DNA of 64,000 bases. Source: Myxococcota bacterium (lineage in GTDB: Bacteria > Myxococcota_C > UBA6777). The stretch is taken from assembly GCA_023150835.1 (NCBI GenBank), contig JAKLKB010000015.1:1-64000 (forward strand), written 5' to 3'. Position numbers and translations under genes: made by a program. The notes under the pieces are model-generated. The model made no database searches. It was not told the origin of the DNA and saw only the letters and a list, made by a program, of their open reading frames with translations. Shown here in pieces: positions 12,626-39,203 of the stretch (position 1 is its first letter; every line of letters starts with the position of its first letter).

Positions 12626-12700
12626 TCTCCACACGCTGCGATGATCTCCGTACTGTAGTCATCCGCCCAGACGACAGCGATCACCGTACACAAACGATGT

Positions 12701-13841: not shown

Positions 13842-14213
13842 GATGGGTCTTCTCCTGTTCTTTCGATATGTTGGATACTTTTGGGCGGATCTTGCCCAAG
13901 GAATCTCGCAATCCCCCCTTGCATCGCCTTTTGCGTGAACGCATCTCAAGGGGGTTCTACGGATCCCTCTGGATAACGCGGCCACACACAAAACGCAAGC
14001 CTTTCGTGGAACGTTCTGTGTACTTGCCTTGTTCGCCGATTTCCAACATAACCTTGTACTGCCGCGCTCACGACGATTGAAACGCCAAGAAACCGCCCCT
14101 CGCGGCCCCTCAAACGAGCCTTCAACGTACAAAGCGGAGCAACGACCTCAACGGCAGGTCTTGATCGCCGTATCCCCCTTGACTTGTTGCATCGACACAA
14201 AGGAGCAAAAAGC
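13842..14213. other. Divergent spacer between prfB and the metalloprotease gene
   Basis: This 372-bp spacer must hold the promoters of both divergent genes. AAGGAG at 14200-14205 is the ribosome-binding site of the metalloprotease gene. I found no promoter with a convincing match in both boxes, and no RNA gene or ORF worth calling. Confidence 0.5.
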
Positions 14214-17411: not shown

Positions 17412-17427
17412 TCTCTGCCCGCATCGA

Positions 17428-17707
17428 CCTCTTCCCCCTGTTCGATATCTCCCGACTGTCGGCCTCTTCCCCCTGTTCGATCTCTCCCGACTGTCGGCCT
17501 CTTCCCCCTGTTCGATCTCTCCCGACTGTCGGCCTCTTCCCCCTGTTCGACATCTCCCGACTGTCGGCCTCTTCCCCCTGTTCGATATCTCCCGACTGTC
17601 GGCCTCTTCCCCCTGTTCGATATCTCCCGACTGTCGGCCTCTTCCCCCTGTTCGATATCTCCCGACTGTCGGCCTCTTCCCCCTGTTCGACATCTCCCGA
17701 CTGTCGG
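17428..17707. repeat. Eight 35-bp tandem repeats (intergenic minisatellite)
   Basis: Exact 35-bp periodicity starts at 17428, 17463, 17498, 17533, 17568, 17603, 17638 and 17673, with a partial ninth at 17708. Copies differ almost only at one dinucleotide after TTCGA (TA, TC or CA). The period is not a multiple of three, so it is non-coding. It lies between the 3' ends of the convergent metalloprotease and export lipoprotein genes. The rest of 17708-17804 shows nothing recognisable. Confidence 0.97.
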
Positions 17708-17804
17708 CCTTTTTCAAATGTGTCCGCTGTGCTTCGCTCCCCGCTCCGTTCGCGGTAGTTGGTTTGTTTCAACAGTTTCCGATTTGGCCCGATGATCGGT
17801 CTGT

Positions 17805-18500
17805 TTAAAACCAGCTTTCAGGGACATAGATCATGTCACCCGGGCGCAGATAGCGGTTGAGAAATCGGCGGCGATCGAACGAATCAAGAGGGATGCGATA
17901 AATTCGGCGCTGTCCATTTTCAAGCGTGCGCATCAAACGGGTGTCGTTTCGTGCTGCGCGGCGACCAAATCCCCCAGCGATAGCGATAATTTGGATCACG
18001 GTGAGGCCGGGTGTGTAGTCAAAACGACCGGGTTTATTGACTTCCCCAAAAACAAAGATCTTTTTGGAATTAAACTCCGTTACTTTGACAACGACGGAAG
18101 GACGGCGTTTTAGAAAGTGCTTGAAGAGTCCATCGGAGATCTCTTGGCGGATCCGCCCGGGGGTTTTTCCACAGATGCGCACCGTTTCAAGCAACGGCAC
18201 TTGAATCGTGCAATCGGGGTACACCTGAAAGGTTCCTTCGATATCTTCATTGTACACTTTGATGTACAGCGTATCGCCTACATCCAAATGGAAGTAAGAA
18301 AGATCGAATTCGGTTGGGTTAGAGGGCTGCGTTTTTTGTGGGTTTCGCCCTGCGACGGGGAGGGGATCTTTTTGGGTTTGCTGAGTGTTGGCGGTACAGG
18401 CCCCAACAAGCACGACAATCGCGGGAAAAGCCAAAAAGACAGGATGGATAAAAAGGCGGAAAAGGCGGAAAAATCTCAAAAAAAAGAAAAAACTGTTCAT
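17805..18500 (-). CDS. Wza-like polysaccharide export lipoprotein
   Basis: A 231-residue outer-membrane export lipoprotein. The start MNSFFFFLRFFRLF leads a lipoprotein signal ending at the lipobox LVGAC. Next come the polysaccharide-export domain (LDVGDTLYIKVYNEDIEGTFQVYP, PSVVVKVTEFNSKKIFVFGEV) and one SLBB-type segment (NKPGRFDYTPGLTVIQIIAIAGGF), ending RPGDMIYVPE. Family members form the outer-membrane exit channel for capsule or exopolysaccharide. The start at 18500 is chosen because it follows the stop of the upstream barrel gene by 34 bp and gives a clean signal. It is the last gene of the envelope block. No Wzc kinase or glycosyltransferase is nearby, so the polymer must be made elsewhere. 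Confidence 0.88.
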   Translation of the reverse strand: MNSFFFFLRFFRLFRLFIHPVFLAFPAIVVLVGACTANTQQTQKDPLPVAGRNPQKTQPSNPTEFDLSYFHLDVGDTLYIKVYNEDIEGTFQVYPDCTIQVPLLETVRICGKTPGRIRQEISDGLFKHFLKRRPSVVVKVTEFNSKKIFVFGEVNKPGRFDYTPGLTVIQIIAIAGGFGRRAARNDTRLMRTLENGQRRIYRIPLDSFDRRRFLNRYLRPGDMIYVPESWF

Positions 18501-18534
18501 GGTTCGGCCTTTGTCAATGTCCCCACCGGCCTGA

Positions 18535-19935
18535 TTACCAAGCGATCTCAGTTTTAAGCGCGGCAGTGATTCGAAAGAATCCGAGGTCAAAGAAGTTTCC
18601 ATCAGCGGTGATCCCGCCGTTGGATTCGCGCCATTCGAGGACGCCTTGCACTCCGAGCGTCCACCATTCAAAGATATACCAATCGAAACTCAAGCCGCCA
18701 TTCACAACAAACTGGTTGGGTGTAGCGTTGCCGTTGGAAGCTGCGATGCGTCCGAAGTTGTATTGAACACCACGGAAATTCGTGGGGATTTGCCCGTATT
18801 GGACATAACCCGCCATCGCGTTGGCCTTCAAAAGGAATCGCGTTGCGAATTGTGCAGCAAAATCAACAACACCGGCCGTCGTATGATAAAAGTTCGTAAA
18901 CATCGAAGGATAAAAGTCGTGAATGAAGCCAGCGCGCAAATACACGGTGGGTGTGAAGTAGTAGGTTAAAGAGATCGACCCCAAAACCATCCCGTAGTTA
19001 TCTTTGGGAACGCTTGGATCGATCCCGCCTGTATCTGCTTCGTTAACGAAGGTGTACCCCCCGCCAATCTTTACTGTAAGCGTCAAGTTGTCGGTAAATT
19101 GACCCAAAAGGCCGATATAGGCTTTGAATGGGTACATTCCTCGGTTCAGTATGCTTGTTCGACCAAGGTTGAGCTGTGGGAAATAATTAACGATATCGAC
19201 GTTGGTTTCGAACAACAAGGCTGTTTTGGGGAGAAACTTCCATTTGACGTTGGCGTAGATGAGTTGGTTGAGAAAGTCCATGTTGGGATCGGGATACAAG
19301 CCGAATCGGATCTGGTAGCCGATATCCGCTGTAAAAGCCTTGCCACCGGGCTGAATGGTCAGTTGGATTTTCGAAGCGTTGTTAAAAGAAAGAAAAGCAC
19401 CACCCCGCTGGGTTCCTGTTTCTGCTTGAAAGAGAAGATAATTGAAGACTTCTTCGGCAGTATAAGTATCGCCGGCGCTGCGACTGAAAAGATTGGAGAT
19501 CAAGAGTTTCACAGGCGCATTTTTGAAAAGTTCCAACGAAAGATCGGCTTTCCCACTTAGCTGATTCAATGGACTAAGCAAGCTGTTGATATAATAGTTG
19601 TAATTCACAAACCCAGCGGCGTTAAAACCAACAGACTCTCCGTTGATCAGCAACTCAAGACCGGGGCGAACGTTAAAGTACGCAGAGTTCACGATCTCGC
19701 TTAATTGAGGAGTGGTACGGGAAGCTGTCGATCGACGAAGCGGGTTTTGATCGAAGCCAAAGTCAAGATACAAGCGGGGGTGAAACTTGCCTTGATCGCC
19801 TAAGAACTTGATACCATCGCCTTTTGCGAGAGTTTCTTTTGTTGAGCCTAGGGCAAAGCACAAGACCAACCATGCAACAACACGCCATCGCGCCAAACGC
19901 GCCCATAGAACAAGACAGCTAGATGCACGCACCAT
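18535..19935 (-). CDS. Outer-membrane beta-barrel protein
   Basis: A 466-residue protein with a signal peptide starting MVRASSCLVLWARLARWRVV and ending near LGSTKETLA. The mature part alternates polar and aromatic residues in amphipathic strands (VNYNYYINSLL, KVGGGYTF-like segments, TYYFTPTVYLRAGFIHDFYP) and ends in a C-terminal Trp (LKTEIAW), as expected for a barrel inserted by BamA. It resembles the putative beta-barrel porin 2 type. The ATG at 19935 is preferred over 19974 because it begins the signal peptide. Placed directly before the Wza-like gene and after the GltG-like gene, it occupies the place of the outer-membrane component of a Glt/Nfs-type machine (GltH-like by position; inference). 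Confidence 0.8.
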   Translation of the reverse strand: MVRASSCLVLWARLARWRVVAWLVLCFALGSTKETLAKGDGIKFLGDQGKFHPRLYLDFGFDQNPLRRSTASRTTPQLSEIVNSAYFNVRPGLELLINGESVGFNAAGFVNYNYYINSLLSPLNQLSGKADLSLELFKNAPVKLLISNLFSRSAGDTYTAEEVFNYLLFQAETGTQRGGAFLSFNNASKIQLTIQPGGKAFTADIGYQIRFGLYPDPNMDFLNQLIYANVKWKFLPKTALLFETNVDIVNYFPQLNLGRTSILNRGMYPFKAYIGLLGQFTDNLTLTVKIGGGYTFVNEADTGGIDPSVPKDNYGMVLGSISLTYYFTPTVYLRAGFIHDFYPSMFTNFYHTTAGVVDFAAQFATRFLLKANAMAGYVQYGQIPTNFRGVQYNFGRIAASNGNATPNQFVVNGGLSFDWYIFEWWTLGVQGVLEWRESNGGITADGNFFDLGFFRITAALKTEIAW

Positions 19936-20145
19936 AGTACATTTCCCATCACGATATCTTGAGAATGCGAACAAACCGTCGCATCAAGAGCCAACCATAG
20001 CCACAAGCAATAAAAACGGTTGCGAGCAAGAAGCCAAAACGGCCCCTTCCTTGACTTGGGACGCTCGGTATACACAAACCTATCGGAATTATCACAGAAG
20101 CGTTGCAGTTCCAAGAACAAGTTGCTTTTTTATACAACAGCGCGC

Positions 20146-20175
20146 CTTAGAACACAAATCATCGGCCCATGTCAA
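20146..20175 (-). promoter_or_regulatory. Candidate sigma-70 promoter for the barrel and Wza-like genes
   Basis: On the - strand, TTGACA (20175-20170), an 18-bp spacer and TCTAAG (20151-20146) lie in the 404-bp spacer 19936-20339. The -35 box is perfect and the -10 box matches 4 of 6. It lies about 210 bp upstream of the barrel gene, so the last two genes may have their own promoter. Confidence 0.35.
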
Positions 20176-20339
20176 CAAGCGACAAAAGAGTCCCTGTCAA
20201 CACAGTTCCAAAACAAAAGAGATTCGGAAAAAACAGGAAGGGCGTAGCACGAAACAAAGACAAAAGCAAGGACTCGATAGAACAAAAGGTGAGAAAAATG
20301 AACGAAGGGAGAAGAGGGGACACAAAGGGGAGAGCGGTG

Positions 20340-21776
20340 TTAACGAGAGGGAGAGAACACAAAGGGAAGAACGATGTTCACGGCTTCGCCTTCGGGTTTG
20401 GGGAAAGACCAGCGTTGTGCAGTGCGTTTGACGCAGCTTGCGACGTTGGAGTTGAGGCTATTTTCTTCGATCTCGACGGCGGTGACGCGACCGGTGAGGG
20501 CAATGGTGATACGGATGCTGATCTTGCCTTTAAGATCGGGGTTGTTTTTGAGTTCGCGTTCGTAGCAAGTGCGTATGCCGGATTGATAGAAGCCGATCTT
20601 TTTTCGGAGCGCACCTTGATCGAGGGTACCGCCTTCGGGTTCAAAGTTTTCGATCTTGAGGTTGGCTTTGATGCTGGCGCCACGACGGCCCGTCCCACCG
20701 CCCTTTACGCCATCGCCGCCGGAGGGTCCGCGCAGATCGCTTGCAACGTCCAAGCTACCGCGCTTTCCGCCACCGCCCCGCGATCCGCGCTGAACTCCAG
20801 AGCCATCGTCTACAGCGACGCCTGACGTGCGTTTGAGTGCTTCGTCGAGGTTGCGTTGCATCTCACCGCCACCCGCAAGGACGTCCTTGATCGGGCTGCC
20901 TTCGCCGCCTTTGGCACCGAGCAAACCAAGCACGCTCACACGTGCCAATTTTTCCGCGATCTGTTGGCGACGTGCGGCTGCACGGGCGGCTTTTTCTGAG
21001 TCGCTCAGTTGCTTCACAGGCCCAGTACGCTTAGAAGGGGCCTCGCGTTTGGCCGGCTTTTTCGGGCCTTTTTTCGTTTCGCCCTTCTTCTTGGGATCTT
21101 TGCCGTCTTCGGTGGGTTTTGCTTTAACAGGAACAGGTGGCGGCTGGATGGGGGCGATATACTTTGCAAAGCGATCGGAGATCTGGTTGAGGCTGATCTC
21201 TTGATCGATCGGATAAGTGCGCAAGTATGCGATAAATCCGAGGTGAGCAAGACCAGAGATCACAAGGATCGAAGAGTATACCCAGTCGATGCCCTTGATC
21301 CAACCGCCTTGGATCAAGGCGGGGATCTGGGGCTTTGCAGGAAGCGGTGGTGGGGTCACAAACTGAAACAGCAGCGTTGTGTCGCCAAAAGTCAATTTCC
21401 CGCGAGATTTTTCGCTGAGAGCGACTTGGTACACGGGTACTTTTTTCTTTTGGCTAGGCTGACCGGGCTTTTCATAATCGACTTGGCCGACTTGTTTGGC
21501 GACACCTTCTTGTTTGAGGGCTTGAAGATCCGCCACACCTGTTCCCAAAGAAAGGCGTCCTGTCATCCATTCTGCGAGGGTAAGGTAGTAGGTATCTTCT
21601 CGGAGTTCAAACAGCGGAAAGCGAGAGGGAAGCCCTGTGGCGGGGATCACAAAGGTATTCCGATTGGAATCGCCCACCGTGACGGGTTCTCGTTTCCGCA
21701 ACAGGCGTTCTTCGATGATCTTCCCGCCTTGGATGATCCCGATACGCAGGATCTTTCTGGTCTGATTCTGTGTCAT
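20340..21776 (-). CDS. GltG/PglI-like inner-membrane protein: FHA-like domain, TM helix, TonB-like C-terminus
   Basis: A 478-residue protein. Residues 1-145 form a cytoplasmic beta-rich domain resembling FHA (EPVTVGDSNRNTFVIP, LTFGDTTLLFQF). One membrane helix lies at about 165-185 (WVYSSILVISGLAHLGF). A Pro/Lys- and Gly/Arg-rich periplasmic linker follows. The C-terminal ~95 residues match the AgmX/PglI C-terminal domain (IRTCYERELKNNPDLKGKISIRITI, ending VNIVLPFVF), a TonB-like fold. This is the domain order of GltG (PglI) of the Myxococcus gliding machine. It probably transmits work from the TolQ/ExbD motor across the periplasm. ATG 21776 has AGAGG eight bases upstream. The ExbD gene lies 74 bp upstream. 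Confidence 0.85.
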   Translation of the reverse strand: MTQNQTRKILRIGIIQGGKIIEERLLRKREPVTVGDSNRNTFVIPATGLPSRFPLFELREDTYYLTLAEWMTGRLSLGTGVADLQALKQEGVAKQVGQVDYEKPGQPSQKKKVPVYQVALSEKSRGKLTFGDTTLLFQFVTPPPLPAKPQIPALIQGGWIKGIDWVYSSILVISGLAHLGFIAYLRTYPIDQEISLNQISDRFAKYIAPIQPPPVPVKAKPTEDGKDPKKKGETKKGPKKPAKREAPSKRTGPVKQLSDSEKAARAAARRQQIAEKLARVSVLGLLGAKGGEGSPIKDVLAGGGEMQRNLDEALKRTSGVAVDDGSGVQRGSRGGGGKRGSLDVASDLRGPSGGDGVKGGGTGRRGASIKANLKIENFEPEGGTLDQGALRKKIGFYQSGIRTCYERELKNNPDLKGKISIRITIALTGRVTAVEIEENSLNSNVASCVKRTAQRWSFPKPEGEAVNIVLPFVFSPSR

Positions 21777-21850
21777 GATAGAGATCCTCTTCCGCCGAAG
21801 GCGAATTGGCGACACAACGCACGAGAGATCGGGACAACACCTCGTCGTCC

Positions 21851-22405
21851 TCAACCACCCTTTTTCACAACAGCAAACTTAAACTTCGAAAACTCCGCTT
21901 GGCCCGCCGTGTACATCACTTCGGAAAGCAAGCGGAAACTCATATCTTGATCGGCGACGATCGTCACTTCCCCCTTGAAGGCAGCGCTGGGGTTGTATTT
22001 GGCGATCTTCTTCTGTTTTTGGACGTCTTCTTTGAGCTCTTTGAACAGAGGCGTGATCAAATAAGACGACGCTTGTTTATCTTTCTTCAGACTGGGGTCG
22101 ACCGTATTTTTCACCACGTCGCACACTTTTTTCCGATTGACCATGATGATCCTTTTCGTCACGGCGATGGTGGTGGTGTGCTTCACCTCGAGTTTGGTAC
22201 TTGACTGAGGCAGGGTATGTTCTTTGGATTGCGGGACGTCGACAGGTGAGGTGGAGTAGTTCATCAAAAGGTAGATCAGCACGTTGACGAAGATGTCCAT
22301 CAACGACGTCATGTTTAGCTCGGCTTTTTTGGCCAAAGCGGCGTCACGCTCGGCTTTCTTCTGGGCTTTTTGATGTTTTCGTTTTTCTTCTACCGCCGAA
22401 CTCAT
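21851..22405 (-). CDS. ExbD/TolR-family motor subunit with the channel Asp
   Basis: A 184-residue protein: basic, helical N-terminus (1-30), one membrane helix (NMTSLMDIFVNVLIYLLM) and a periplasmic domain. Asp37 in SLMDIF sits at the position of the proton-carrying Asp of ExbD/TolR. It should couple proton flow through the TolQ-type pentamer to movement of the periplasmic partner. ATG 22405 has AAAGGAG eight bases upstream. It forms a pair with the other ExbD, encoded 189 bp upstream, in which this Asp is Asn. The 22406-22594 spacer holds no recognised feature. Confidence 0.9.
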   Translation of the reverse strand: MSSAVEEKRKHQKAQKKAERDAALAKKAELNMTSLMDIFVNVLIYLLMNYSTSPVDVPQSKEHTLPQSSTKLEVKHTTTIAVTKRIIMVNRKKVCDVVKNTVDPSLKKDKQASSYLITPLFKELKEDVQKQKKIAKYNPSAAFKGEVTIVADQDMSFRLLSEVMYTAGQAEFSKFKFAVVKKGG

Positions 22406-22594
22406 CGTTCGTTCTCCTTTGTATCATCGTTGTGCTGCGACCTTTGTCACCGATACCACACAAAAGTTTCAAGCTTTTTTTGGGGTTCACATCTTGTGTG
22501 GTTTGGGTGTTTCGCGTGGCTCTGCGAAGCCAAAGACAAACAAGACTTGATCATCTGCGTAGGGTTAGATTCGATCGAGGCCGAGAAGGATGGT

Positions 22595-23122
22595 TTAGAG
22601 CACGCCTGCGCTCAAAACCACTTCGGGAAACATTTCTTTGTCTGCCGTTTTGCCTTCGCGGCTATGGTCCATCACATCAATGATGTTCGAATAACGGATC
22701 TCGGGTTCCGCCATGATGATGATGCGCTTTTCATCGGGAAAGACTTCTTTGATGGTTTGGAGGCATTGCTTCAAAACAGGCAAGTTGTGTTTGTCGCCGA
22801 TCTTTTTCACGGTGGGGAGTTTGGCCTCGGTAGCTTCGCCTTTGAGGTCGCAGCCTTCGGGGATTTTTTTCCCTCGGGTCAAGATCGTCAAGCCTTTTTC
22901 TGTGATGCTGACCGTCAAATTCAGCGGTGGCTTTTCGTCTTTTTTCTTGGGTTCACTGCTGGAGGCTCCCCCGCCGATCTTGGGGGCTGCGACGTTGATC
23001 ACGCCGATCTTGATGAACTCGGTGCTCATGATCAAAAAGGGGATCAAGAGCATGATGATGTTCATCAAGGGCATGATATTGATTTCTTCGGTGGCGTCTT
23101 CTTGGCGTATTTTCTTTCCCAT
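22595..23122 (-). CDS. ExbD/TolR-family motor subunit with Asn at the channel position
   Basis: A 175-residue protein with the single membrane helix NIMPLMNIIMLLIPFLIM and a periplasmic domain. The residue equivalent to the essential Asp of ExbD is Asn21, so this subunit should not carry protons itself; it may form a heterodimer with the Asp-bearing ExbD encoded next. ATG 23122 is chosen over 23212 because AAGGAG lies seven bases upstream and the longer N-terminus does not look like this family. It follows the TolQ/ExbB gene by 106 bp. Confidence 0.88.
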   Translation of the reverse strand: MGKKIRQEDATEEINIMPLMNIIMLLIPFLIMSTEFIKIGVINVAAPKIGGGASSSEPKKKDEKPPLNLTVSITEKGLTILTRGKKIPEGCDLKGEATEAKLPTVKKIGDKHNLPVLKQCLQTIKEVFPDEKRIIIMAEPEIRYSNIIDVMDHSREGKTADKEMFPEVVLSAGVL

Positions 23123-23228
23123 ACGGGATCTCCTTATGACGAGCAGGATCTTTGTGAAGCAAAGATACAAACGACACAAAGCAGGCGCGGAGGGGCCTGC
23201 TTTGTGATGCAACTAGGCACGGAAAGGC

Positions 23229-23879
23229 TTAGCGATCAAGCGGGTTGGACTGGCCTTTGGCGCGGTTGAAGAGCAAGTTTTGGAGTTTGGTGGTGTATTC
23301 GTCGATCTCGTCGATGATCTTTTTGGTGATCGCGCCGAGCATTGCGTGTGCAACGAGACAAGGGATTGCAGCCACAAGACCAAACGCTGTCGTGTTCAAC
23401 GCGATGGAGATGTATTGCGCGAGCAGTTTGGATTTTTGGTCCGCAGAGGCTTTGTCAAGGGCCTTGAACGCTTCGATCAGACCGAAGATCGTACCAAGGA
23501 GGCCCAACATGGTTGCGACGTTGGCGGTGGCTTGGAGCAGGTTGGTGCGTTTTTGAAGTTTCGGGATGACTTCGAGCGAGGCTTCTTCGATGGCGTTGGA
23601 GATCTCGACTTCGCCTTTGTTTGCGCGAGTCAGGCCCGCTTTCACCACTTTGGGAAGAGCAGCGGAAGGAGCGGCGTTACAAAGTTTGATCGCACGATCG
23701 ATGTTGTTGGCAAGGACCAGTTTTTGGATTTGGGCCATGAAAGCAGCGCCGTTGATGTTGTATTTGAAGAACAAAAAGATGAAGCGCTCGATCGTCAGAC
23801 CGATACCAAAGATCAGGGCGATCGCGATGGGGTGCATAAAGATGCCGCCTTCAACATAGAACTGTTTTAATTCGGACAT
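23229..23879 (-). CDS. TolQ/ExbB/MotA-family proton channel subunit
   Basis: A 216-residue inner-membrane protein with the family layout: a first helix in MHPIAIALIFGIGLTIERFIFLF, a cytoplasmic loop, and two late helices in LLQATANVATMLGLLGTIFGLIEAF and YISIALNTTAFGLVAAIPCLVAHAM. The TMLGLLGTIFG and NTTAFGL signatures are typical of ExbB/TolQ. With the two ExbD proteins it forms a proton-driven motor, like AglR with AglQ/AglS in Myxococcus. ATG 23879 has AGGAGGAG about six bases upstream, the strongest ribosome-binding site in the block, consistent with a need for more copies of the pentameric subunit. Confidence 0.92.
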   Translation of the reverse strand: MSELKQFYVEGGIFMHPIAIALIFGIGLTIERFIFLFFKYNINGAAFMAQIQKLVLANNIDRAIKLCNAAPSAALPKVVKAGLTRANKGEVEISNAIEEASLEVIPKLQKRTNLLQATANVATMLGLLGTIFGLIEAFKALDKASADQKSKLLAQYISIALNTTAFGLVAAIPCLVAHAMLGAITKKIIDEIDEYTTKLQNLLFNRAKGQSNPLDR

Positions 23880-24068
23880 AGATCCACTCCTCCTGAGTAT
23901 TGTGAGTGCTTGGTTAGTGGTTTCAAGACGCCACTTGGGTTGTTCTTTCAGAGTCGCCCGCAAAACCGAGTGCGACTCGATAAGCAGCATAGGATCAGAG
24001 CGGGGGGATGTTTGTGTGGGTGAAAAAGCCCAAAAACAAACAGATTCCACACCCAACAAGAGGTTGCC

Positions 24069-24335
24069 TTAAAACGGTGTTTTTTTGACCGCGTTGATCA
24101 CTTTCTTCACGAAGCTTTCGTTGCGTTTGAAGCCCTCGTAGTTGAGAGGGGCGCGGTTGAGTACGTAAAACGCTTGGGGCTTTTGGATACGCCCAACGAT
24201 CTTGACGTCGGAGATGCGGATCACACGGCCACCTGTGCGCTTTTGAGCGCAGACCGTCGTACTTGCGGGCAGCAGCATAAAGGATAGCGTTGTGCTGAGC
24301 AAGAGCGTTTGTGCGAAACGTCGAAAAAATTGCAT
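24069..24335 (-). CDS. Small exported protein, position of GltF
   Basis: An 88-residue protein: signal peptide MQFFRRFAQTLLLSTTLSFM ending near STTVCA, then a basic, beta-prone segment GGRVIRISDVKIVGRIQKPQ followed by AFYVLNRAPLNYEGFKRNESF. The ATG at 24335 is preferred over the much longer reading to 24962 because AGAGG lies about eight bases upstream and a signal peptide starts there. It sits between the TPR lipoprotein and the TolQ gene, where Myxococcus encodes the small GltF. That equivalence rests on position and size only. Confidence 0.72.
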   Translation of the reverse strand: MQFFRRFAQTLLLSTTLSFMLLPASTTVCAQKRTGGRVIRISDVKIVGRIQKPQAFYVLNRAPLNYEGFKRNESFVKKVINAVKKTPF

Positions 24336-24350
24336 CACGCAGCCTCTTTT

Positions 24351-24366
24351 CGCGGATATATCCGCG
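24351..24366. promoter_or_regulatory. Perfect 16-bp palindrome upstream of the small exported protein gene
   Basis: CGCGGATATATCCGCG is a perfect inverted repeat, 16 bp upstream of the start at 24335, overlapping the 5' leader on the - strand. It could be an operator or a small leader hairpin. Confidence 0.35.
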
Positions 24367-24756
24367 TTTGATGCGAACGATCCAAGATCGCCATTTGCTT
24401 TCGATGCAAAGCGCGGTGTTGTTGTTCGTAGGGATGCTGGCTTGTTCGCATGGTTTGCATGGTTTGTGTGTTGGGGTGGAAGGGGCCGCCCGAAAGGAGG
24501 AAAAAGCAACGCAGTGGACCTTTTCTTCGAGCAGAGAGCCAATCCACGGAAAGAAGGCAGGAGAGGAGATGTATTGGAAGCATTCCACACAAGCGGGTTG
24601 TTTGGTTGTGTGGTAGCGAAAACAATCGCTCGGCTACCGATATCACTTTGTCGTGTCATCCAATCCATCGTCCCCATTTGCGGGGTTACGGCCCTATCGG
24701 AGGGCAGCTTGAGGCGAAGAATCTTTTCTGTACCAACGCACAAAAAAGACTTGTTT

Positions 24757-24775
24757 CTCCCCTTGTATCGGGGAG
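24757..24775 (-). terminator. Candidate terminator hairpin after the TPR lipoprotein gene
   Basis: CTCCCC (24757-24762) and GGGGAG (24770-24775) form a 6-bp stem with a 7-base loop in the 653-bp spacer 24336-24988. T-rich runs follow on both strands, although on the - strand the run starts about nine bases from the stem. If real, it separates transcription of the upstream TPR genes from the motor genes. The rest of the spacer shows no gene. Confidence 0.35.
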
Positions 24776-24988
24776 TTTCCGTTTTTTTGGGCACACGTCG
24801 GCGATGATGCGATATCTGGGGTTGAAAGTCAAGGAACACTTTTCGCTTTTGCACGCCTCGCCCCGCCCCACCGCCAAAGGCAAACAGTCGAGGCGAGCCA
24901 AAACGACGGAGCCTAGGCGCGGAATCCACACGGTTCAGAGAAGTTGGCCCATCGAAAAGCATCGTAGGTGGCTCGTATTCGCTTGATG

Positions 24989-26359
24989 TTATCGACGTTT
25001 TGGAGGTTGTTTTGTTTTGCGGAGGCGGGCGCGTTGGATGCTTTTGATCGTGGAGTCGAGGCGTTTGCGGAGGCTGGCGATCTGTTTGTTGGCATCGGCA
25101 AGATAGCGATGAGCGGGAGCATCCGATGCGACACCACTTTTTTGGTTGATGTAGGCTTGGAGATGGTAGGCTGCGGTAGAAAAGCGGGAGATGCCGTCCA
25201 TGATGGCGACGATGCGTTTTTCGCTTTGAACATCGGGAGGGGCTTCGCGCAGAAAGCGGTCGGTCGGCATCGCACGTTGGATGCGAAGATCGCGATCGAG
25301 ATGCAAGATCCCCATATTGTAGTGCGCATCAACATAAGAGGGATTGTCTTGCAAGAGCTTTTGAAAGACTTCGAGAGACTCTTTGTATTGTTGCGATGCG
25401 TTCAAGACGATGCCGTAGTTCAAGCGGGCCTCCCACATTCGCGGCGCAAGGTCCACCGCAGCACGAAAGTGAGGGACGGCTTCGCGCAACTTGCCCCGTT
25501 CAAGCAACAAAACACCAAGAAAGTTATGTGCTTCGGGAAACTCGTGGCGCAGTTTGACCGCTTTTTCAAGAAAAGTGATCGCGGAGCTTACATCGTTGAG
25601 CTTTTTGTATGCAAAGCCCAGATAATACAAGGGTTCTGCAAAGGTTTTGTCGGCATCTGCCGCCAACGTAAACGCCGTTCGTGCCAGTTCGAATTTTTCT
25701 TGCTTGTACCAGATCAAGCCGAGGTTCAGGATGGCTTGGGCATTTTTTTCATCTTTTTGGCGAAGGGTGCGCGCCATCTGTTCTGCGCGGCTGAGTTGGC
25801 CTTGTTGGATGTAGAGATAGACGAGCGCGTTTTGGAAGGCCAGCTCTTGTGGAAACGAGCGGGACTTGTCCGCGATCAGCTCCATCGCTTCGCTGGTTCG
25901 GCCTTGTCGCAGATGCACGCGCATCAAGTTCATCGCAGCCGGCACGAAGTCTGGCTTGATCCGCAGCGCGTTGGTGTAGGCTGTTCGGCTACCCATCGGG
26001 TTGTTCAAGCGATCCTGCAAGACACCGATGTTGTACCAAGCTTTGTGATTTTTCGGATCGTTTTGTAAGACTTGTTCGAGTTCTTTGAGCGCTTGCAACG
26101 GATCTTGTTTGGCAGCATCCAACGCGGCTTTGAAGCGCTCTTTGGAGCCTTCTTGTGGATCTGCGGCTTTGACAGGTTCAGGTTCGGGTGAAGCTTCGGG
26201 GATCTCTTCGGTCGTTCCGCCATCTGCGCTTGCAACAGCACCACCTTCTGCGTTGAGTGTTTCATCTTGCTTGACCACCGTTTGGTTTGGGCAGCCGACC
26301 AAGACGACCGTCCCCAACCACGCGCTCAACCAAACTACCCACCATCCAACATGACGCAT
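24989..26359 (-). CDS. TPR lipoprotein (GltE/AglT-like)
   Basis: A 456-residue lipoprotein. The signal MRHVGWWVVWLSAWLGTVVLVGC ends in a lipobox (LVGC). A Glu/Ala-rich linker follows, then about eight TPR units (for example PKNHKAWYNIGVLQDRLNNPMGSRTAY, AQAILNLGLIWYKQEKFELARTAF, AEPLYYLGFAYKKLNDVSSA). The basic C-terminus ends RKTKQPPKRR. Size, lipoprotein signal, TPR content and place before the small exported gene fit GltE (AglT) of the Glt machine. Its role would be a periplasm-facing scaffold anchored in a membrane. ATG 26359 has GAGAGG seven bases upstream. The 26360-26463 spacer is short and featureless. Confidence 0.82.
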   Translation of the reverse strand: MRHVGWWVVWLSAWLGTVVLVGCPNQTVVKQDETLNAEGGAVASADGGTTEEIPEASPEPEPVKAADPQEGSKERFKAALDAAKQDPLQALKELEQVLQNDPKNHKAWYNIGVLQDRLNNPMGSRTAYTNALRIKPDFVPAAMNLMRVHLRQGRTSEAMELIADKSRSFPQELAFQNALVYLYIQQGQLSRAEQMARTLRQKDEKNAQAILNLGLIWYKQEKFELARTAFTLAADADKTFAEPLYYLGFAYKKLNDVSSAITFLEKAVKLRHEFPEAHNFLGVLLLERGKLREAVPHFRAAVDLAPRMWEARLNYGIVLNASQQYKESLEVFQKLLQDNPSYVDAHYNMGILHLDRDLRIQRAMPTDRFLREAPPDVQSEKRIVAIMDGISRFSTAAYHLQAYINQKSGVASDAPAHRYLADANKQIASLRKRLDSTIKSIQRARLRKTKQPPKRR

Positions 26360-26463
26360 CTTCTATCCTCTCAGCGCTTGTGCGCATCGAAACGTCCACC
26401 ACACGGGGAGTTTCGCATCCAAGCTGATCTTCGTTTGGCTTTCCAACAGCTCCCATCGTGTCC

Positions 26464-29400
26464 TCAACGCTTGGGAGGCTCTTTGGAGGCAGGTGTTTTT
26501 TCAGGTTCCAAACTCATCAAAGGCAGCGGAGACAACGGATCGAATGTTGTTTGAGGCTCCAACTTTTTCGGTAGAGGGAAGTTTGGATCGGCCCGATGGA
26601 TCGCTTCGTAGGCTTGGTTGGTACACTCGTTTTCAAAAAACAACTCTTTGGATTTGTCTACGACCTTGCGATACAGCGCTTGGGCTTGATCTTCGAGAGG
26701 CCGCACAAGCTGTTGATCGAGCTTTTCTTTGTAGATCTCTTTGGCTTCTTCGGTCCAACGCAAACCGCGGATCTTTGGCAACGGTGCTTTGGAGACGCCT
26801 GTTGCGATCTTTTGCTTGCCTTCGGCGATTCGATAGAGCGCACACAACAGCCAAGGAGCCGAAGAATACAGCGCAACGCGATTAAAATCCTTGACGACTT
26901 CGTTGTAGCGCTTGCTTTTGTCGGAGATCTGGCGTTTTTGCACCTGTGGGTTGGTGCTGTCGATGCGCAACTTATCGAATTTTTCGTATTCAAACATCGC
27001 TAAAGCGTACGCGGCTTTAGCGGGGTAGTGGCTTGTTAAAGAAAGATCCACTTGTTTCATCCGACCTTTTAGGCCATCAAAGACGCGGATCATCTTTTCG
27101 TGTTCTCGCTTCATCCGAGACCAAGGTAGCGACTTTTTCTCGATCTCTTCGTAGATGGTTCCATGACATTGCATCACGCGGCGCACGTAGTCGCTGTTGC
27201 TTTGGTATCGACGGATAAACGACTCACACAAACGCACCACGTCATCTGTTCGCTTCATGCGCTGGTAGACTTTGACCGCGTTGTACAACACGTCAGGGGC
27301 ATCTTTGCGGGCACTAAACTCGCGTGCGTACCGTTGGTAAGCGCGTGCGGCTTCATCGTAACGCTGCATACTTTCCAACAGCACAGCCGCGTTAAACAAA
27401 GCATCCGCACGCTTGTGCGAATCGCGGTAGGCTCGGTTGTCCACCAGCTCAAGGTAGCGACCGATCGCCTTGTCAAAGTTGAAATATTTTTCTGCGTTGT
27501 AGGCTACAAAAAACAACGCTTGATCGGAGCCTGCTTTGGGGTTGCCTTCATTGTCGAGCAAGAGGTTGCCTTGTTTGTCACGCAAGCGCCAAGTCGGATA
27601 ACGCTGGACCACCAACTCGTACACCTTCAAAGCAGACCCAAACATCTTCGCTTTTTCGTACATCAGCGCGGCGTTCCAAAGACCCGCAGGGGCGTCTTTG
27701 TCTTTCGGATTTTGCTCGACGGCCTTCATAAAAGCTTGGGCAGCCTCCACCCATTGTCCTTTTTCTTTCAACTGGTTCGCTTTGATGAAGATAACGCCGA
27801 CCTTGAGTTCTTTTTCGTAAGGGAAGGCGAGGCCAAACTTTTTTAGCTCGTCGATGGCCGCCACCATCTCATCCAAACAACCCTGTCTACGGTGGCTTGC
27901 AACGATCGTATCCCCTGCCGACTTTGCCAGCGGATGTTGTGGGTAGGTTTGAAGGAAATTCATCAAGCGTTGGCGTGTTTCGGCAAGGTGATCGTACGAA
28001 AAATAGATCCGCGCTGCGGAGTAGCTTTGCTCTGCGTTACGCGGATCTTTGGGGTTTTTGTTCAACGCCAAAAAAGCATCGCGTGCTTCGAGCAATTGGA
28101 GTTGCATCGGATGGATCGGTAGTTTTGGAAGCTGAACGCAGCGCATATTGCGAATGGACTGTTCAGGTTTCTTTTTCTTCGGATCTTCTTCGGCTTTTTT
28201 TCCGATGTCTTCAGGCAATTCACAAGCCTTTTGGATCGTTCCCTCGCGACAAGCCGCATTGGTGATCTGCACCAAGCTATCGACCAATCCAAAGGCGGCT
28301 TCTACGGTAAACTTGCCACCGCCCGGCCATTCCCGCACCTTACGAAACTCGACAGCAGCCTCTTTGAAGCGCAACGCATAAAACAAACTGTCTGCGAGAT
28401 ACCACATCAGCGTGTACACTTCTTTATGATGCGGAAAGCGCCGTAAAAACTCGCGGTAGTTGTCAGCAGCCACGACACAATCTTGGCGCGATTGTTCGAG
28501 CAGCGTCTTTTGTTCGGCAGGATCAGTGCTTTTTTGTGCTCGACCCCGCTTCACGTTGCAGCTTTCATGGCGGAAGATCGCGGCTTGGTAGATACTATCG
28601 CTGATGATCTTTTGGACAGAGCGCTGAGCCGTCACGTCGCTTCGGTTTTTGATCTCCCAAGGAGTATTGACACCAAAGCGCTCGATCAATTTGTTTCGTT
28701 CGAGCATCGCGGTGGAAAAGTCCGACTTACGCATATAAGCTTGAACGATCCGCTCTTGAACCAAGGGGTTAGAGGGATGATAAGGAAACAGATCCAATAT
28801 CTTGCGATTCATCGCGATCGCCATATCCCAGTTGTTTTGAGTGGCGTAGTTCTCTGCGATCTGGAGCATGATCTCGCGTGCGTAGGGCTTGTCCAAACCA
28901 ACCTCGCGGACGTATTTCTCGGCTTTTTCGGGGCTTCCCCAGTCTTCGTCGGCGAAAGAGATCGCGATGTATTGGATCGCTTCTTTTCGCAGATCTCCTC
29001 CTCCCGCTTCGTCTTTTTTCTTGAGATAAAATTCCAAAAGTTCGGTAAAACGCTTGACCGAGTCTTCAAACTCGTTCATCAGATAATGCGTCCACGCGAG
29101 TTTGTATAACGCTTTGTCAAACATGGGATGCGTCGTATATTGCAGCACTTTGGCATAGGCTTCTTTGGCTTTTCGACGGTTTTCTGCAACGTTTGCGCCG
29201 TCTGTTTTTCTGAAGTGGTATTCTCCGATCCGCACCCATGCTTCGGCAATAAAGCGGCTATCGGGGTACTGTTCGGTGATCTTGCGAAAGTACGGGATGG
29301 CTTCTTCGGCCTTGCCTTCTTCTTCGATGCAATAACCGAGAAGATAGTAGGCCCCTGCGACCAAGCGATAAGACGGGAAACGTTGAACCAATTCGTTAAG

Positions 29401-30108
29401 CCAGCGCGTTGTTTCTGAAAAGCGTTTTTTCGCAGGCAAAGGTTCGTAAGGGATCTCTTTGTTTTCAAACTTTTGAAGATCTTCTTCGTACTTTTTTGCG
29501 CGAGCGAGGTATTCGTTAAACTCTTCTTCGTAGTACAACTCAGCAAGGCGATACATGGCGTCTGGCGTGTAGCTCGGGTGATCTGGATAGCGGCGGACAA
29601 AGGCGATGAAATACTGGATGGCCTTTCGACGTGTCAATTCTTCGTCTTTGTCGAGCTTATCGAGGCGTTTCTTAAAACCATCGACCACCAGTTTTCGACG
29701 TTCGCGGTACTGTTTACGCACCAATTCGCGTGCCTCTCCAAGATAGTCCCGCGCAGCTTGACGAAAATCGTCATAGGCTTCTTTGATCTGCTTCATCTCT
29801 TGATCGCGTTCTTTGCCGCGCAGGATGATCACTCCATCAGAAGAAGTCGTGGGAGTCGGCGTTGCCGATGTATTGGGAGCCGTTGCGGCATCGGCTGTTG
29901 TGCCAGTCGTTCCGTCTGTTTTTTTCGCGGAAGCGGAAGAGGGGGCATTTCCGTCAGTCGTTTTTGTAGGAACGGGGGGGTTGCTCCCGGGGGTACTTGC
30001 TTTTTCAGCAGGTTTGATCTGTGTGCGATCTTTTTGTGCGTGTGTGGGAGAGATTGCAAAAGCCACAACAAACAGCACACAGAGGGCAGATATCCGTAGT
30101 TGACACAT
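26464..30108 (-). CDS. Large periplasmic TPR protein (GltD/AgmU-like)
   Basis: A 1214-residue exported protein with the signal peptide MCQLRISALCVLFVVAFAISPTHA, a Thr/Ala/Pro-rich low-complexity segment to about residue 95, a coiled-coil stretch (KEAYDDFRQAARDYLGEARELV) and then many TPR-like units through most of the length (for example PDAMYRLAELYYEEEFNEYL, AYYLLGYCIEEEGKAEEAI, ADALFNAAVLLESMQRYDEAARAY). It ends in a Pro/Lys-rich tail. Length and architecture closely match AgmU/GltD of Myxococcus (about 1200 residues, periplasmic, TPR), which spans the periplasm in the gliding complex. ATG 30108 has GAGG seven bases upstream. Gene order with the TPR lipoprotein downstream also fits. Confidence 0.82.
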   Translation of the reverse strand: MCQLRISALCVLFVVAFAISPTHAQKDRTQIKPAEKASTPGSNPPVPTKTTDGNAPSSASAKKTDGTTGTTADAATAPNTSATPTPTTSSDGVIILRGKERDQEMKQIKEAYDDFRQAARDYLGEARELVRKQYRERRKLVVDGFKKRLDKLDKDEELTRRKAIQYFIAFVRRYPDHPSYTPDAMYRLAELYYEEEFNEYLARAKKYEEDLQKFENKEIPYEPLPAKKRFSETTRWLNELVQRFPSYRLVAGAYYLLGYCIEEEGKAEEAIPYFRKITEQYPDSRFIAEAWVRIGEYHFRKTDGANVAENRRKAKEAYAKVLQYTTHPMFDKALYKLAWTHYLMNEFEDSVKRFTELLEFYLKKKDEAGGGDLRKEAIQYIAISFADEDWGSPEKAEKYVREVGLDKPYAREIMLQIAENYATQNNWDMAIAMNRKILDLFPYHPSNPLVQERIVQAYMRKSDFSTAMLERNKLIERFGVNTPWEIKNRSDVTAQRSVQKIISDSIYQAAIFRHESCNVKRGRAQKSTDPAEQKTLLEQSRQDCVVAADNYREFLRRFPHHKEVYTLMWYLADSLFYALRFKEAAVEFRKVREWPGGGKFTVEAAFGLVDSLVQITNAACREGTIQKACELPEDIGKKAEEDPKKKKPEQSIRNMRCVQLPKLPIHPMQLQLLEARDAFLALNKNPKDPRNAEQSYSAARIYFSYDHLAETRQRLMNFLQTYPQHPLAKSAGDTIVASHRRQGCLDEMVAAIDELKKFGLAFPYEKELKVGVIFIKANQLKEKGQWVEAAQAFMKAVEQNPKDKDAPAGLWNAALMYEKAKMFGSALKVYELVVQRYPTWRLRDKQGNLLLDNEGNPKAGSDQALFFVAYNAEKYFNFDKAIGRYLELVDNRAYRDSHKRADALFNAAVLLESMQRYDEAARAYQRYAREFSARKDAPDVLYNAVKVYQRMKRTDDVVRLCESFIRRYQSNSDYVRRVMQCHGTIYEEIEKKSLPWSRMKREHEKMIRVFDGLKGRMKQVDLSLTSHYPAKAAYALAMFEYEKFDKLRIDSTNPQVQKRQISDKSKRYNEVVKDFNRVALYSSAPWLLCALYRIAEGKQKIATGVSKAPLPKIRGLRWTEEAKEIYKEKLDQQLVRPLEDQAQALYRKVVDKSKELFFENECTNQAYEAIHRADPNFPLPKKLEPQTTFDPLSPLPLMSLEPEKTPASKEPPKR

Positions 30109-30165
30109 GGTCTAGCCTCATCGCCTTGGTTCTCGAAATCCCAAGGCCAAGTGTACTCAAAAAAA

Positions 30166-32559
30166 CTATTTTACCTCATCAAGAAGATCGCGAAACTCCG
30201 CATCAAGCATACGCAGCTCGCTGTTTCGCTCTCGTGTGATCTTTTGGCTTTTGGTTTGGATGGTTTGTTTTTCTTTCCACACCACATCGATCACACCGAC
30301 ATCTGCGCGCAAGATAAGTTGGTAAAAGCGTTTTTTGACGCTTTCAAAACCTTCGTAGATCACGGCACGCGAAAGCTGCGAGGCTTCATTTTGCAAGGAA
30401 AGCAAGAGTCCTTCATAGCGCGTGAGTTTTTGCTTTTCGTTCAAAAGACGGGCACGAACATCTCGGGTATAGCGCAAGATCGAAGAATTGAGTTGGCGGG
30501 TGAAGTCTGTGAGTTCGCCTTGTATCCGAATCAATTGCTCGTTCGTGCTTTGAAGCTCGCTTACGATCTGGCTGGCCTCGCCATCCAAACGCGACTGGAC
30601 GTTGGCGAGCAACGCCTTTTGTTGTGCGAGAAGTTGGCGATATTGATTTTGTAGGCTCAATTCTTTGGGATCGGTCGCGTAACCGAGTTCGATACGAACA
30701 AGATCCAATTCGCGCTGAAGTTTTTGTTTTGCATCCCGCAAAGTCTTGATCTCGTTATCGATCCATGCCAATTCGGTTTGGACATCAGATTGCGCTTGGG
30801 GAGCTAAGAGCTGTGCTTCTTTGCTGCGTTGAAGCCACTTTTGCGAAGCGCGCTGTTCCCGTTCGATCTGGTTGAGGGCGATGGTCACTTTGTGAAGACG
30901 CACCGCCATGCGCTCAGAACGCTCTTGGAAGGATTTGGCTCGGAGATCCAAGGAAGCCTCGTTTTGAGGGGCGTTTTGCAGTTGTTTCTGATGTTTTTTA
31001 AGGTCTTCTACGATCCGTTCATAGCGGGTGCGCTCATCAGAAGTCATCTTGTCCAACACGAGGCTTTGTTCGAGTGCGTTGGATTCGGCTTGCGCAGCGA
31101 TCAATTGGTTTTGTGCGGCGATCGATTGCAAGCGTGCTTGCCGTAGTTCAGGCGAGATCAGGATTCGTTCTTGTACGCGCAGTGCTTGTTCGAGGCGTTG
31201 CACGATCTGCAACGAGTCCGACATAAAGGCTTGCATTTGTACGAGATCTCGCTGAACAGAAAGCACACGTTGGATCTGCTCGTCTTCTGTGAGGCTTTGG
31301 ACGGCTTCACGCGGCAAAAGAGAGTTTGAAACCAAAGCACTGCGCGATCGTTTTTTCTCGGAGACAGCGCGAAGAAGCTCCTTTTCTACATCCAAACGAT
31401 TTTTTTTGATCTGATCAAGCTCCCGATACACCGAAGAATACTGCTTTACGATCTTGTTGTAGCCGTCCATCGCGGGCGAAAATCGGTCCAGTTCCAGCAA
31501 GAGTTGTCCACGCAAAAGCTGCGCTTGCGAATAGAAGGTGCTGTTGGGCAAAAAGTCAAGCAATAGATTGAGGCTTTTGAGCGCTCGATCATACTCCTTT
31601 TGCTGCTTTTTTAGGTCTTTGTAACCCCGCCCGCGGCGGATATAAGTCCAGCAAATCTCATATAACGCTTCATCAAAAACCGCAGAACTTCGCCCAACTT
31701 GTTGATAATAATCCAACGCCGAAGCATAGTCATTTTTCTCTAAATAGAGGCGCCCCAACGCGATCAAGATGGTGTTGTAGAGGTCTCGTGTACGTTTTGC
31801 GCTGCTTTGTTCGACGGGTTTGCGGGCTGCCCCCAAACCAGCAACCAAAAAGCGGATGGCGTTTTCTACGTTTTGTGGATGAGGGGCTGTTTTGAGTTGG
31901 ATAACAGCAAGAAAGTATTGACCTTGAGGCCAGTATTGCGAGCCTTGTGCGATGCGTTGAAAACTTTGCGAAGCGTCGGAAAAGCGATCTTGGGCGTAAA
32001 AAGTTTTGCCTTGGAGATAGACGATCTGGGCGCGTTTTTCTTCGGACATGGAATCCAACGAGATCGCGGGCATTTTTGCGTTGACCCAGTCGTACTTGCG
32101 AGTCAAGTTCGCGATCTCAAGCAGACGGATCAGGGCGTCTGGAAAGCGCCGATTTCGCGAATTGACGATGCGTTCATAGTACTTTGCCGCAGAGATGTAG
32201 TTTCCGTTTTTAAAGAGCGACTCGGCAAGAAAAAAATTGGCATCGAGCCACCCTGTTTTTCCTCGATTTTCCGTTGACTCCACCGCATCCAACAAGATCA
32301 CACTGGCGCTGGTGTAATCCCCCAACAAAAAGTTGACCTGCCCGTCAGAGAGGCGCTTTTGCAAAGAGACACGACCTTCGGTCCGTTGGCCTCGGTAGCT
32401 TTGCCGCAACAAGCGCACACTTGATTCCAAGCGCCTTGCCTGATTTTTGATCGACTCCAAACGCTCGCGTGCGGAAGCCGCGAAGGCTTTTTGCACTCCA
32501 AGAAGACCCACAACACAGCAAAGCAGCACTATCCGCTGCCACAGAGATCCTTGCTTCAT
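30166..32559 (-). CDS. Exported TPR and coiled-coil protein
   Basis: A 797-residue protein with the signal peptide MKQGSLWQRIVLLCCVVGLLGVQKAFA. Residues ~30-340 contain TPR-like helical pairs (NFFLAESLFKNGNYISAAKYYERI, NTILIALGRLYLEKNDYASALDYY). Residues ~350-790 are long coiled coil rich in Gln, Leu, Arg and Glu, with few Gly or Pro. Of two nearby starts, ATG 32559 is preferred (AGGAG eight bases upstream) over 32565. It lies 57 bp upstream of the large TPR gene and 54 bp downstream of the hypothetical gene, so co-transcription is likely. I do not recognise a named Glt counterpart; it may be an extra periplasmic strut. Confidence 0.8.
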   Translation of the reverse strand: MKQGSLWQRIVLLCCVVGLLGVQKAFAASARERLESIKNQARRLESSVRLLRQSYRGQRTEGRVSLQKRLSDGQVNFLLGDYTSASVILLDAVESTENRGKTGWLDANFFLAESLFKNGNYISAAKYYERIVNSRNRRFPDALIRLLEIANLTRKYDWVNAKMPAISLDSMSEEKRAQIVYLQGKTFYAQDRFSDASQSFQRIAQGSQYWPQGQYFLAVIQLKTAPHPQNVENAIRFLVAGLGAARKPVEQSSAKRTRDLYNTILIALGRLYLEKNDYASALDYYQQVGRSSAVFDEALYEICWTYIRRGRGYKDLKKQQKEYDRALKSLNLLLDFLPNSTFYSQAQLLRGQLLLELDRFSPAMDGYNKIVKQYSSVYRELDQIKKNRLDVEKELLRAVSEKKRSRSALVSNSLLPREAVQSLTEDEQIQRVLSVQRDLVQMQAFMSDSLQIVQRLEQALRVQERILISPELRQARLQSIAAQNQLIAAQAESNALEQSLVLDKMTSDERTRYERIVEDLKKHQKQLQNAPQNEASLDLRAKSFQERSERMAVRLHKVTIALNQIEREQRASQKWLQRSKEAQLLAPQAQSDVQTELAWIDNEIKTLRDAKQKLQRELDLVRIELGYATDPKELSLQNQYRQLLAQQKALLANVQSRLDGEASQIVSELQSTNEQLIRIQGELTDFTRQLNSSILRYTRDVRARLLNEKQKLTRYEGLLLSLQNEASQLSRAVIYEGFESVKKRFYQLILRADVGVIDVVWKEKQTIQTKSQKITRERNSELRMLDAEFRDLLDEVK

Positions 32560-32613
32560 CCACATCGCTCCTTGCCTTGCTCGGCAGCCCTTATCACACC
32601 CCAACGTCTCGGA

Positions 32614-33408
32614 TTATTTCGTTTCCGCTTTGGGGGCGTCTTTGCGTTTGGCTGTGATATCGCGGATCTTGACATCATATTGAACAGTCGGTCGATCGGT
32701 CAATTGCGTTACCAGCGGGTTCTTTTCAAAAGCAACCACCGATATCTCCATTGATTTTCCTTCGAGAGCTTTGAACGTGTATGAAGAGCGTACGCGAAAT
32801 CGGTATTGTTTTAGGTACGAAAAAACACCCAATCCGTTGCCTCGAAACACCAATTCGACGGAAAGAGTATAACGTTCGGGCTGGAGCGTGTTGGTAAAGG
32901 CCACGAACTTTCGGGCGCTTGCTTTGTTGAGGGAGCCTTCGTAGTCCGTTTTGGTAAAGACAGGGTTTCCGCTCAGAGTGTAAGAGATCGAGCGCAAGTA
33001 AAAGGACGAACCCATTCGATTGTCGTGGACCAACACCACCTTCGATGTGGAGATCGCCCCTTGCAGCAAGGATTCTTGCAGCAACATCAGCTTGGCTTTG
33101 CTGCGGAAGATCTGCTCCTTGAGAGAGCCTGTTTTTTCTTCGATGGTCAGTAGTTGAAAGCGGTGGCGGTCGGATTGGACGCTGCTTCCTTCGGAGGGTG
33201 CATTTGGAGGAGAGCCTGAGGTGGGGGAGCCTGAGGTGGGGGGTGTCGGTTTGGGAGCATCCTCTTTTTTGGGATTATCGGACTTTTTGGCATCGCGAGC
33301 AGGTGGTGGGTTGGGTTTGTCTTGGGCCCAAGAGACAGAGACGCCGCTGAAGCAACATACGGTGAAAAACAAGCAGATACGACGGAAAGAGCCGTTGAGA
33401 ACGGACAT
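32614..33408 (-). CDS. Exported protein of unknown function, first gene of the envelope block
   Basis: A 264-residue protein: signal peptide MSVLNGSFRRICLFFTVCCF ending near VSVSWA, then a Pro/Lys/Ser-rich linker with a TSGSP repeat to about residue 75. A beta-rich domain follows (KTGSLKEQIFRSKAKLMLLQ, SSFYLRSISYTLSGNPVF, YTLSVELVFRGNGLGVFSYL) with a basic C-terminus. I do not recognise the family. ATG 33408 has AAGGAG seven bases upstream. As first gene of a run of TPR and motor genes it is probably a periplasmic member of the same complex. Confidence 0.75.
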   Translation of the reverse strand: MSVLNGSFRRICLFFTVCCFSGVSVSWAQDKPNPPPARDAKKSDNPKKEDAPKPTPPTSGSPTSGSPPNAPSEGSSVQSDRHRFQLLTIEEKTGSLKEQIFRSKAKLMLLQESLLQGAISTSKVVLVHDNRMGSSFYLRSISYTLSGNPVFTKTDYEGSLNKASARKFVAFTNTLQPERYTLSVELVFRGNGLGVFSYLKQYRFRVRSSYTFKALEGKSMEISVVAFEKNPLVTQLTDRPTVQYDVKIRDITAKRKDAPKAETK

Positions 33409-39193: not shown

Positions 39194-39203
39194 CGTCCCC
39201 TCC

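Follow-up and report, generated by a model that had tools for sequence, protein, structure and literature searches.

Why should a motor and scaffold of the Glt kind, best known from gliding, share one run of genes with an outlet for polysaccharide? The question is raised by a 64-kb stretch of DNA from an uncultured Myxococcota bacterium (contig JAKLKB010000015.1, positions 1 to 64,000; the window), in which eleven genes, all on the minus strand and reading in one direction, occupy positions 17805–33408. We propose, with a probability of about 0.58, that this block encodes one trans-envelope machine of the Glt type, driven by protons and assembled around a polysaccharide translocon. Its parts would be an ExbB/ExbD-type motor, in which R is combined with a mixed ExbD axle; a TonB-like transducer of the GltG type; a periplasmic scaffold of tetratricopeptide repeat (TPR) and associated proteins (C, D, E and F); and a sandwich protein, X. 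The polysaccharide would exit through a class 3 outer-membrane polysaccharide export (OPX) lipoprotein and an 18-strand barrel.

Organization of the block

In transcriptional order the genes are X, C, D, E, F, R, two ExbD genes, G, the barrel and OPX. The initial annotation had listed eleven co-directional genes here, and all of them were present; the starts given below are refined ones. Intergenic gaps measure 34–189 bp, except those between E and F (653 bp) and between G and the barrel gene (about 400 bp). Pfam searches revealed Poly_export and SLBB in OPX, ExbD twice, MotA_ExbB once and TPR in three genes, with no family for X or the barrel. A promoter scan of the region gave predictions at shuffle level, terminator-like sites were mostly intragenic, and neither scan set the transcript ends.

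A putative composite translocon

By their predicted anatomy, the last two genes code for a composite OPX/beta-barrel polysaccharide translocon. OPX (W; 17805–18500) is a 231 amino acid protein with a lipobox and with the Poly_export (PF02563) and SLBB domains, both above cut-off, that mark the OPX partner of such translocons. Its sequence runs on for a few residues at most after the SLBB domain, and none of 26 homologues possesses a C-terminal helix region. Lacking the outer-membrane helix, it would belong to class 3, whose members work with the 18-strand barrels EpsX, ExoB and WzpB encoded beside them; in Myxococcus xanthus these three are predicted 18-strand barrels adjoining short OPX genes.

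The closest solved OPX structure is a short polysaccharide export protein (PDB accession number 9n9a; E-value=8e-68, against 1e-37 for Wza), which is about 46–55% identical to the nearest OPX proteins of related gene cassettes. Together with the cassette proteins it forms a single 55-row clade (support 99/96), which includes five OPX rows from outside the full cassette, two of them from loci of the L195/L196 type described below. Among the closest relatives found for 9n9a, two (60% and 56% identical) are encoded in C-D-E-F-G-barrel-OPX blocks without a motor. The two genomes concerned (L222, L224) carry R-ExbD-ExbD sets elsewhere, and X is visible in one of the blocks.

The barrel gene (H; 18535–19935) specifies a 466 amino acid outer-membrane protein, the putative porin half of the translocon. 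Its AlphaFold model (pLDDT 82) displays 18 long strands, and its best structural matches are OprD/Occ porins (Z about 20), followed by AlgE, which exports alginate (Z about 19). Foldseek placed TonB receptors first, at low TM-scores; the structural comparison that gave these Z values was clearer. EpsL, a polysaccharide outer-membrane protein, was matched by 10 of 45 barrel homologues. A GltH-like barrel had been suggested earlier, and this idea did not survive: with 466 residues and 18 predicted strands the protein is twice the length of M. xanthus GltH (209 residues), and it matches the 172-position model of CglE, which we take to be GltH, over 58 positions only. No polysaccharide synthesis genes were found in the block, and the pair does not lie within a polysaccharide synthesis cluster.

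Scaffold and transducer

Upstream of the translocon lie homologs of GltC, GltD, GltE and GltG, in that order, as in the transducers of Glt/Nfs systems. Gene C (30166–32559) codes for a 797 amino acid exported TPR/coiled-coil protein, D (26464–30108) for a 1214 amino acid exported TPR protein and E (24989–26359) for a 456 amino acid TPR lipoprotein with a lipobox. Gene C had been considered to have no counterpart; its counterpart is GltC (NCBIfam NF033756, E-value=2e-12). In profile–profile comparisons with the proteins of Glt loci, C paired with C (E-value=9e-41 over 316 columns), D with D (6e-114 over 949 columns), E with E (1e-58) and G with G (2e-60). Mismatched TPR pairs reached only 1e-9 to 1e-12, so the one-to-one pairing reflects more than generic repeats. 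With single models the picture for E is less sharp: GltE gives 74 bits and is outscored by MamA and PrsT through shared repeats. Gene F (24069–24335), which is kept in the cassettes, encodes 88 amino acids with a signal peptide and occupies the place of CglF (GltF); the window protein gave no match to the CglF model.

Gene G (20340–21776) encodes a 478 amino acid GltG-like transducer (NF033760, E-value=1.7e-38; NF033768, E-value=2.6e-25) comprising a cytoplasmic domain, one transmembrane helix, a periplasmic linker and an AgmX/PglI TonB-like C-terminus. The label "FHA-like" that it had been given proved to be mistaken. No FHA domain was found in it by Pfam, the GltG model aligned over its positions 204–648 only, and, aligned to the FHA-bearing GltG encoded elsewhere in this genome, it begins at that protein's second cytoplasmic domain. 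Paralogues of the FHA-less kind also occur at L033, L034 and L035, where no further gene of the cassette was detected nearby.

The FHA-bearing GltG belongs to a separate Glt-type block (L037, 6452–19520, corresponding to about 18.5–31.5 kb of contig C115 of the window genome). It comprises genes for an outer-membrane protein, C, D, E, a small exported protein, FHA-GltG, a small barrel and a TPR lipoprotein, in that order, and has no motor genes. Against the NCBIfam models for GltC, GltG, CglE and CglF (equivalog cut-offs of 450, 650, 70 and 90 bits, respectively), this block scored 375, 442, 68.2 and 89.4 bits, all below cut-off with the last two close to it, and the top hit of its gene E is GltE. 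The window block gave 47, 133 and 21 bits, and none for CglF. Because L037 scores so much higher, the window block is a paralogue distinct from the Glt/Nfs set of its own genome, and its product would be a diverged sister of the Glt/Nfs machines. The initial annotation's "Glt/Nfs-like machine" thus holds insofar as C, D, E and G are true Glt homologs accompanied by an ExbB/ExbD motor; it does not hold as a name for this genome's Glt/Nfs set.

Sets like L037 were seen in relatives (L036, L038). Searches aimed at M. xanthus sequence recognised no Myxococcaceae genome: the GltG and GltJ models gave no match at strict thresholds over 377 Myxococcota genomes, a search in which only three candidates were scored per genome and which does not imply absence, and nothing in the class of L119 exceeded the GltG cut-off.

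The L037-type set suggests that this uncultured lineage may glide, and it bears on whether the window block is itself a gliding machine like Glt, its polysaccharide being the slime that couples the machine to the surface. The core is indeed homologous to Glt, and M. xanthus slime aids the adhesion of Glt to the substratum. However, it is the separate locus that holds the Glt-type set with FHA-GltG and with CglE-like and CglF-like genes, whereas in the window block FHA and GltH are missing and nothing matches CglF. Furthermore, the paralogous clusters G3, G4, G5 and M2 of M. xanthus are dispensable for gliding. We consider a gliding role for the block very unlikely.

The motor

Gene R (23229–23879) codes for a 216 amino acid motor subunit of the ExbB/TolQ/AglR type (PF01618, E-value=7e-26, and alignment), and the two genes that follow code for ExbD/TolR-type proteins, ExbD-1 (22595–23122; 175 amino acids; PF02472, E-value=2e-13) in the AglQ position and ExbD-2 (21851–22405; 184 amino acids; PF02472, E-value=3e-13) in the AglS position. 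One ExbB/TolQ subunit with two different ExbD/TolR subunits is the composition of AglRQS. The earlier name "TolQ" for R is apt as regards the ExbB/TolQ family, and should not be read as placing R in a Tol-Pal system. The window's ExbD-2 keeps the transmembrane proton-binding Asp, as do 76 of 77 homologues, and at this position its ExbD-1 has Asn, as do 64 of 79. The axle is therefore asymmetric, and probably only one of its subunits carries the proton.

Lone ExbB/AglR-like genes, 66–74% identical to the cassette R, were observed at L040 (2385–3047), L046, L047, L048 and L053. The idea that such a gene powers the Glt-type locus was rejected, since no ExbD genes were detected beside them. At L231 and L232 a tandem R pair precedes two ExbD genes, and the OPX block of those genomes lacks a motor.

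Conservation of the gene order

Two other genomes of the same family contain all eleven genes in identical order. In two further ones the contig, or the stretch examined, begins within C; C and the nine genes after it are in order. Scanning GTDB genomes with the motor protein gave 80 loci, mostly from metagenome-assembled genomes that carry the label Myxococcota, Myxococcales or Deltaproteobacteria; Nannocystis, Plesiocystis, Enhygromyxa, Paraliomyxa and Lujinxingia are also represented. The complete order X-C-D-E-F-R-ExbD-ExbD-G-barrel-OPX occurs in many Myxococcota loci and order is kept in dozens, far beyond chance; linkage to the motor, on which the initial annotation had laid weight, is likewise conserved. 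OPX is present in 43 of the 52 loci that have at least 4 kb after G, and the earlier view that the polysaccharide outlet belongs with the motor block was right in substance.

Gene X

The first gene of the block (32614–33408) specifies a 264 amino acid exported protein with a signal peptide, a Pro-rich linker, a 44-residue helix and an 8-strand beta sandwich (model pLDDT 82). Forty-seven members, 22–47% identical to that of the window, were aligned; they share this layout, the linker being variable, and X is the conserved first gene of the cassette. A fold search gave no outstanding match (best Z 8.6). Transthyretin, PepT and other sandwiches (Z about 8) were rejected as relatives, as their similarity may reflect merely a common arrangement. 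Gene X was not detected in Glt-type loci and hence marks this variant of the cassette. Its members constitute a new family limited to these blocks, in keeping with the initial impression of a new part.

Sole OPX genes and a likely source of the polymer

A single OPX gene was found in 17 genomes, namely the window genome, its sister and 15 others with an OPX-bearing cassette, among them three Nannocystis species, Plesiocystis, Enhygromyxa and Lujinxingia; "single" here means one match at E 1e-3 with one model, genome-wide, in genomes many of which are drafts. Two to four were found in other genomes. Coordinates or a neighbouring barrel place the sole OPX gene in the cassette in about ten of the 17; the remainder were assigned to it because a search that finds one OPX gene must have found the cassette's own.

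On another contig of the window genome, a gene for a Wzc-like tyrosine-kinase-type protein (L163, 9124–11520), with an AAA_31 kinase domain and a Tyr-rich tail, adjoins one for a Wzy_C/TPR protein (12607–15369). There is no OPX gene beside them, and this pair is the likely polymer-making partner of the translocon.

Proposed machine and its alternatives

In the machine that we propose, proton flow through R and the ExbD proteins would move G, the transducer arm, and the TPR scaffold would relay this force to the OPX/barrel pair, gating the exit, driving the polymer or carrying it as it emerges. The polymer would be supplied by a Wzx/Wzy-type pathway encoded elsewhere. Bacteria with the cassette may thus enlist a motor to extrude or manipulate their polysaccharide coat. 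We suggest more tentatively, as a possibility well short of even, that the proton gradient, acting via a TolQR-type motor and Glt-type transducer, powers the export of a secreted polysaccharide across the outer membrane. Such a motorised OPX translocon would perhaps share ancestry with the gliding and spore-coat machines.

Several observations weigh against the proposal. No experiment linking motor and translocon was found for any organism, and M. xanthus agl mutants still bring slime and Exo polymer to the surface, so export need not be motor-driven. A reportedly polar mutation in MXAN_1922, the gltD homolog of the G4 cluster, caused no visible motility defect. The S-x3-H motif of the TonB/TolA helix, present in G of the window's family, was found by a pattern test in just 14 of 63 other cassette G proteins, and was rejected as a universal transducer motif outside that family. 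As to the polymer, the Wzz match of the Wzc-like protein is below cut-off (22.1 of 25.5 bits), and a PF02397 sugar transferase was not found in the window genome. Finally, nine of the 52 cassettes with room have no OPX directly after G, and the core can therefore stand without it.

These nine loci raise the question of whether the arrangement is operon history alone, the core and the translocon doing separate jobs and sharing a transcript. They show the two to be separable, and in one of them (L201) barrel and OPX lie about 7–9 kb downstream of G, OPX at about 8 kb, so that some 7 kb of other DNA separates the barrel gene from G. Yet the order is kept across deeply diverged lineages, and a second arrangement also joins motor and translocon. 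In two of the nine, where the core cassette lacks barrel and OPX, the same genome has another R-ExbD-ExbD set directly before a barrel and OPX, without a TPR scaffold (L195, 12367–16423; L196, 3811–8501). Shared history by itself strikes us as highly improbable.

The main rival is a division of labour like that of Nfs, in which OPX and barrel would be a passive exit and the motor-driven core would act after export, only to move the polymer or spread it on the surface. Agl-Nfs of M. xanthus acts downstream of Exo export, which continues in agl mutants, the core is homologous to Glt/Nfs, and some cassettes lack OPX. However, the nfs and exo export genes of M. xanthus are separate loci, whereas here the core block itself includes the outlet, which is often the sole OPX of the genome. 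The mini-loci of L195 and L196 also speak against such a split, since their motor stands beside barrel and OPX with no scaffold. We regard it as unlikely, while still a serious competitor to a motor coupled to the translocon.

Other features of the window

Directly downstream of the operon lies a 35-bp tandem repeat of 8.2 copies (17424–17710), and there are many other minisatellites in the window. A 936 amino acid protein (8320–11130) matches in its first half the archaeal beta-CASP ribonuclease aCPSF1 (E-value=3e-93) and a Cas14-type metallo-beta-lactamase/beta-CASP protein (E-value=2e-75). The gene at 37088–39349 encodes a fusion of TPR and periplasmic-binding-protein domains reminiscent of LpoA-type lipoproteins.

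Comparison with known systems

The window block shares with the Agl-Glt and Agl-Nfs systems of M. xanthus (PMC3169522, PMC3858216) one-to-one homologs of C, D, E and G, the order C-D-E-F-G and an ExbB with two ExbD proteins. It differs in that G lacks FHA, CglE and CglF (GltH and GltF) find no match, no GltA/B/I/J/K-type genes were recognised in it, the motor is inside the block, barrel and OPX stand at its end, and X is present. The "core complex" described from Gamma- and Deltaproteobacteria (gltC-D-E-G and aglRQS; PMC3169522) has the same seven-gene core with the motor linked to the scaffold; the main text of that paper names no polysaccharide gene, whereas the window block adds barrel, OPX and X. 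The role of the Glt/Agl core outside gliders, and that of the M. xanthus clusters G4, G5 and M2, were left open there in 2011. In the open-access literature searched we found no paper that states a link between OPX and Glt-type genes.

The G4 cluster contains MXAN_1922, which is six locus tags from MXAN_1916 (WzpB) and seven from MXAN_1915 (WzaB). The latter is described as orphan-like, outside a polysaccharide-synthesis cluster, and published work leaves wzaB an orphan, 1 Mb away from the rest of its pathway (PMC7310880). Judging from locus tags, the window machine probably corresponds to the G4 cluster together with the "orphan" WzpB/WzaB pair; G4 and M2 would then have the arrangement of L222 and L224, a block without a motor and the motor elsewhere. 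The block thus offers a common answer to the role of the Glt/Agl core outside gliders and to the orphan status of wzaB. The M. xanthus biosurfactant polysaccharide (BPS) pathway, in which 1.02 Mb separate wzaB from the BPS cluster and a kinase is likewise fused to Wzc (WzcB), resembles the window genome in separating OPX from the Wzc-like kinase gene. With the composite translocons EpsX/EpsY, ExoB/ExoA and WzpB/WzaB (PMC9601211, PMC9603273) the window block shares a helix-less short OPX adjoining an 18-strand barrel; the difference is that here the pair closes a motor operon.

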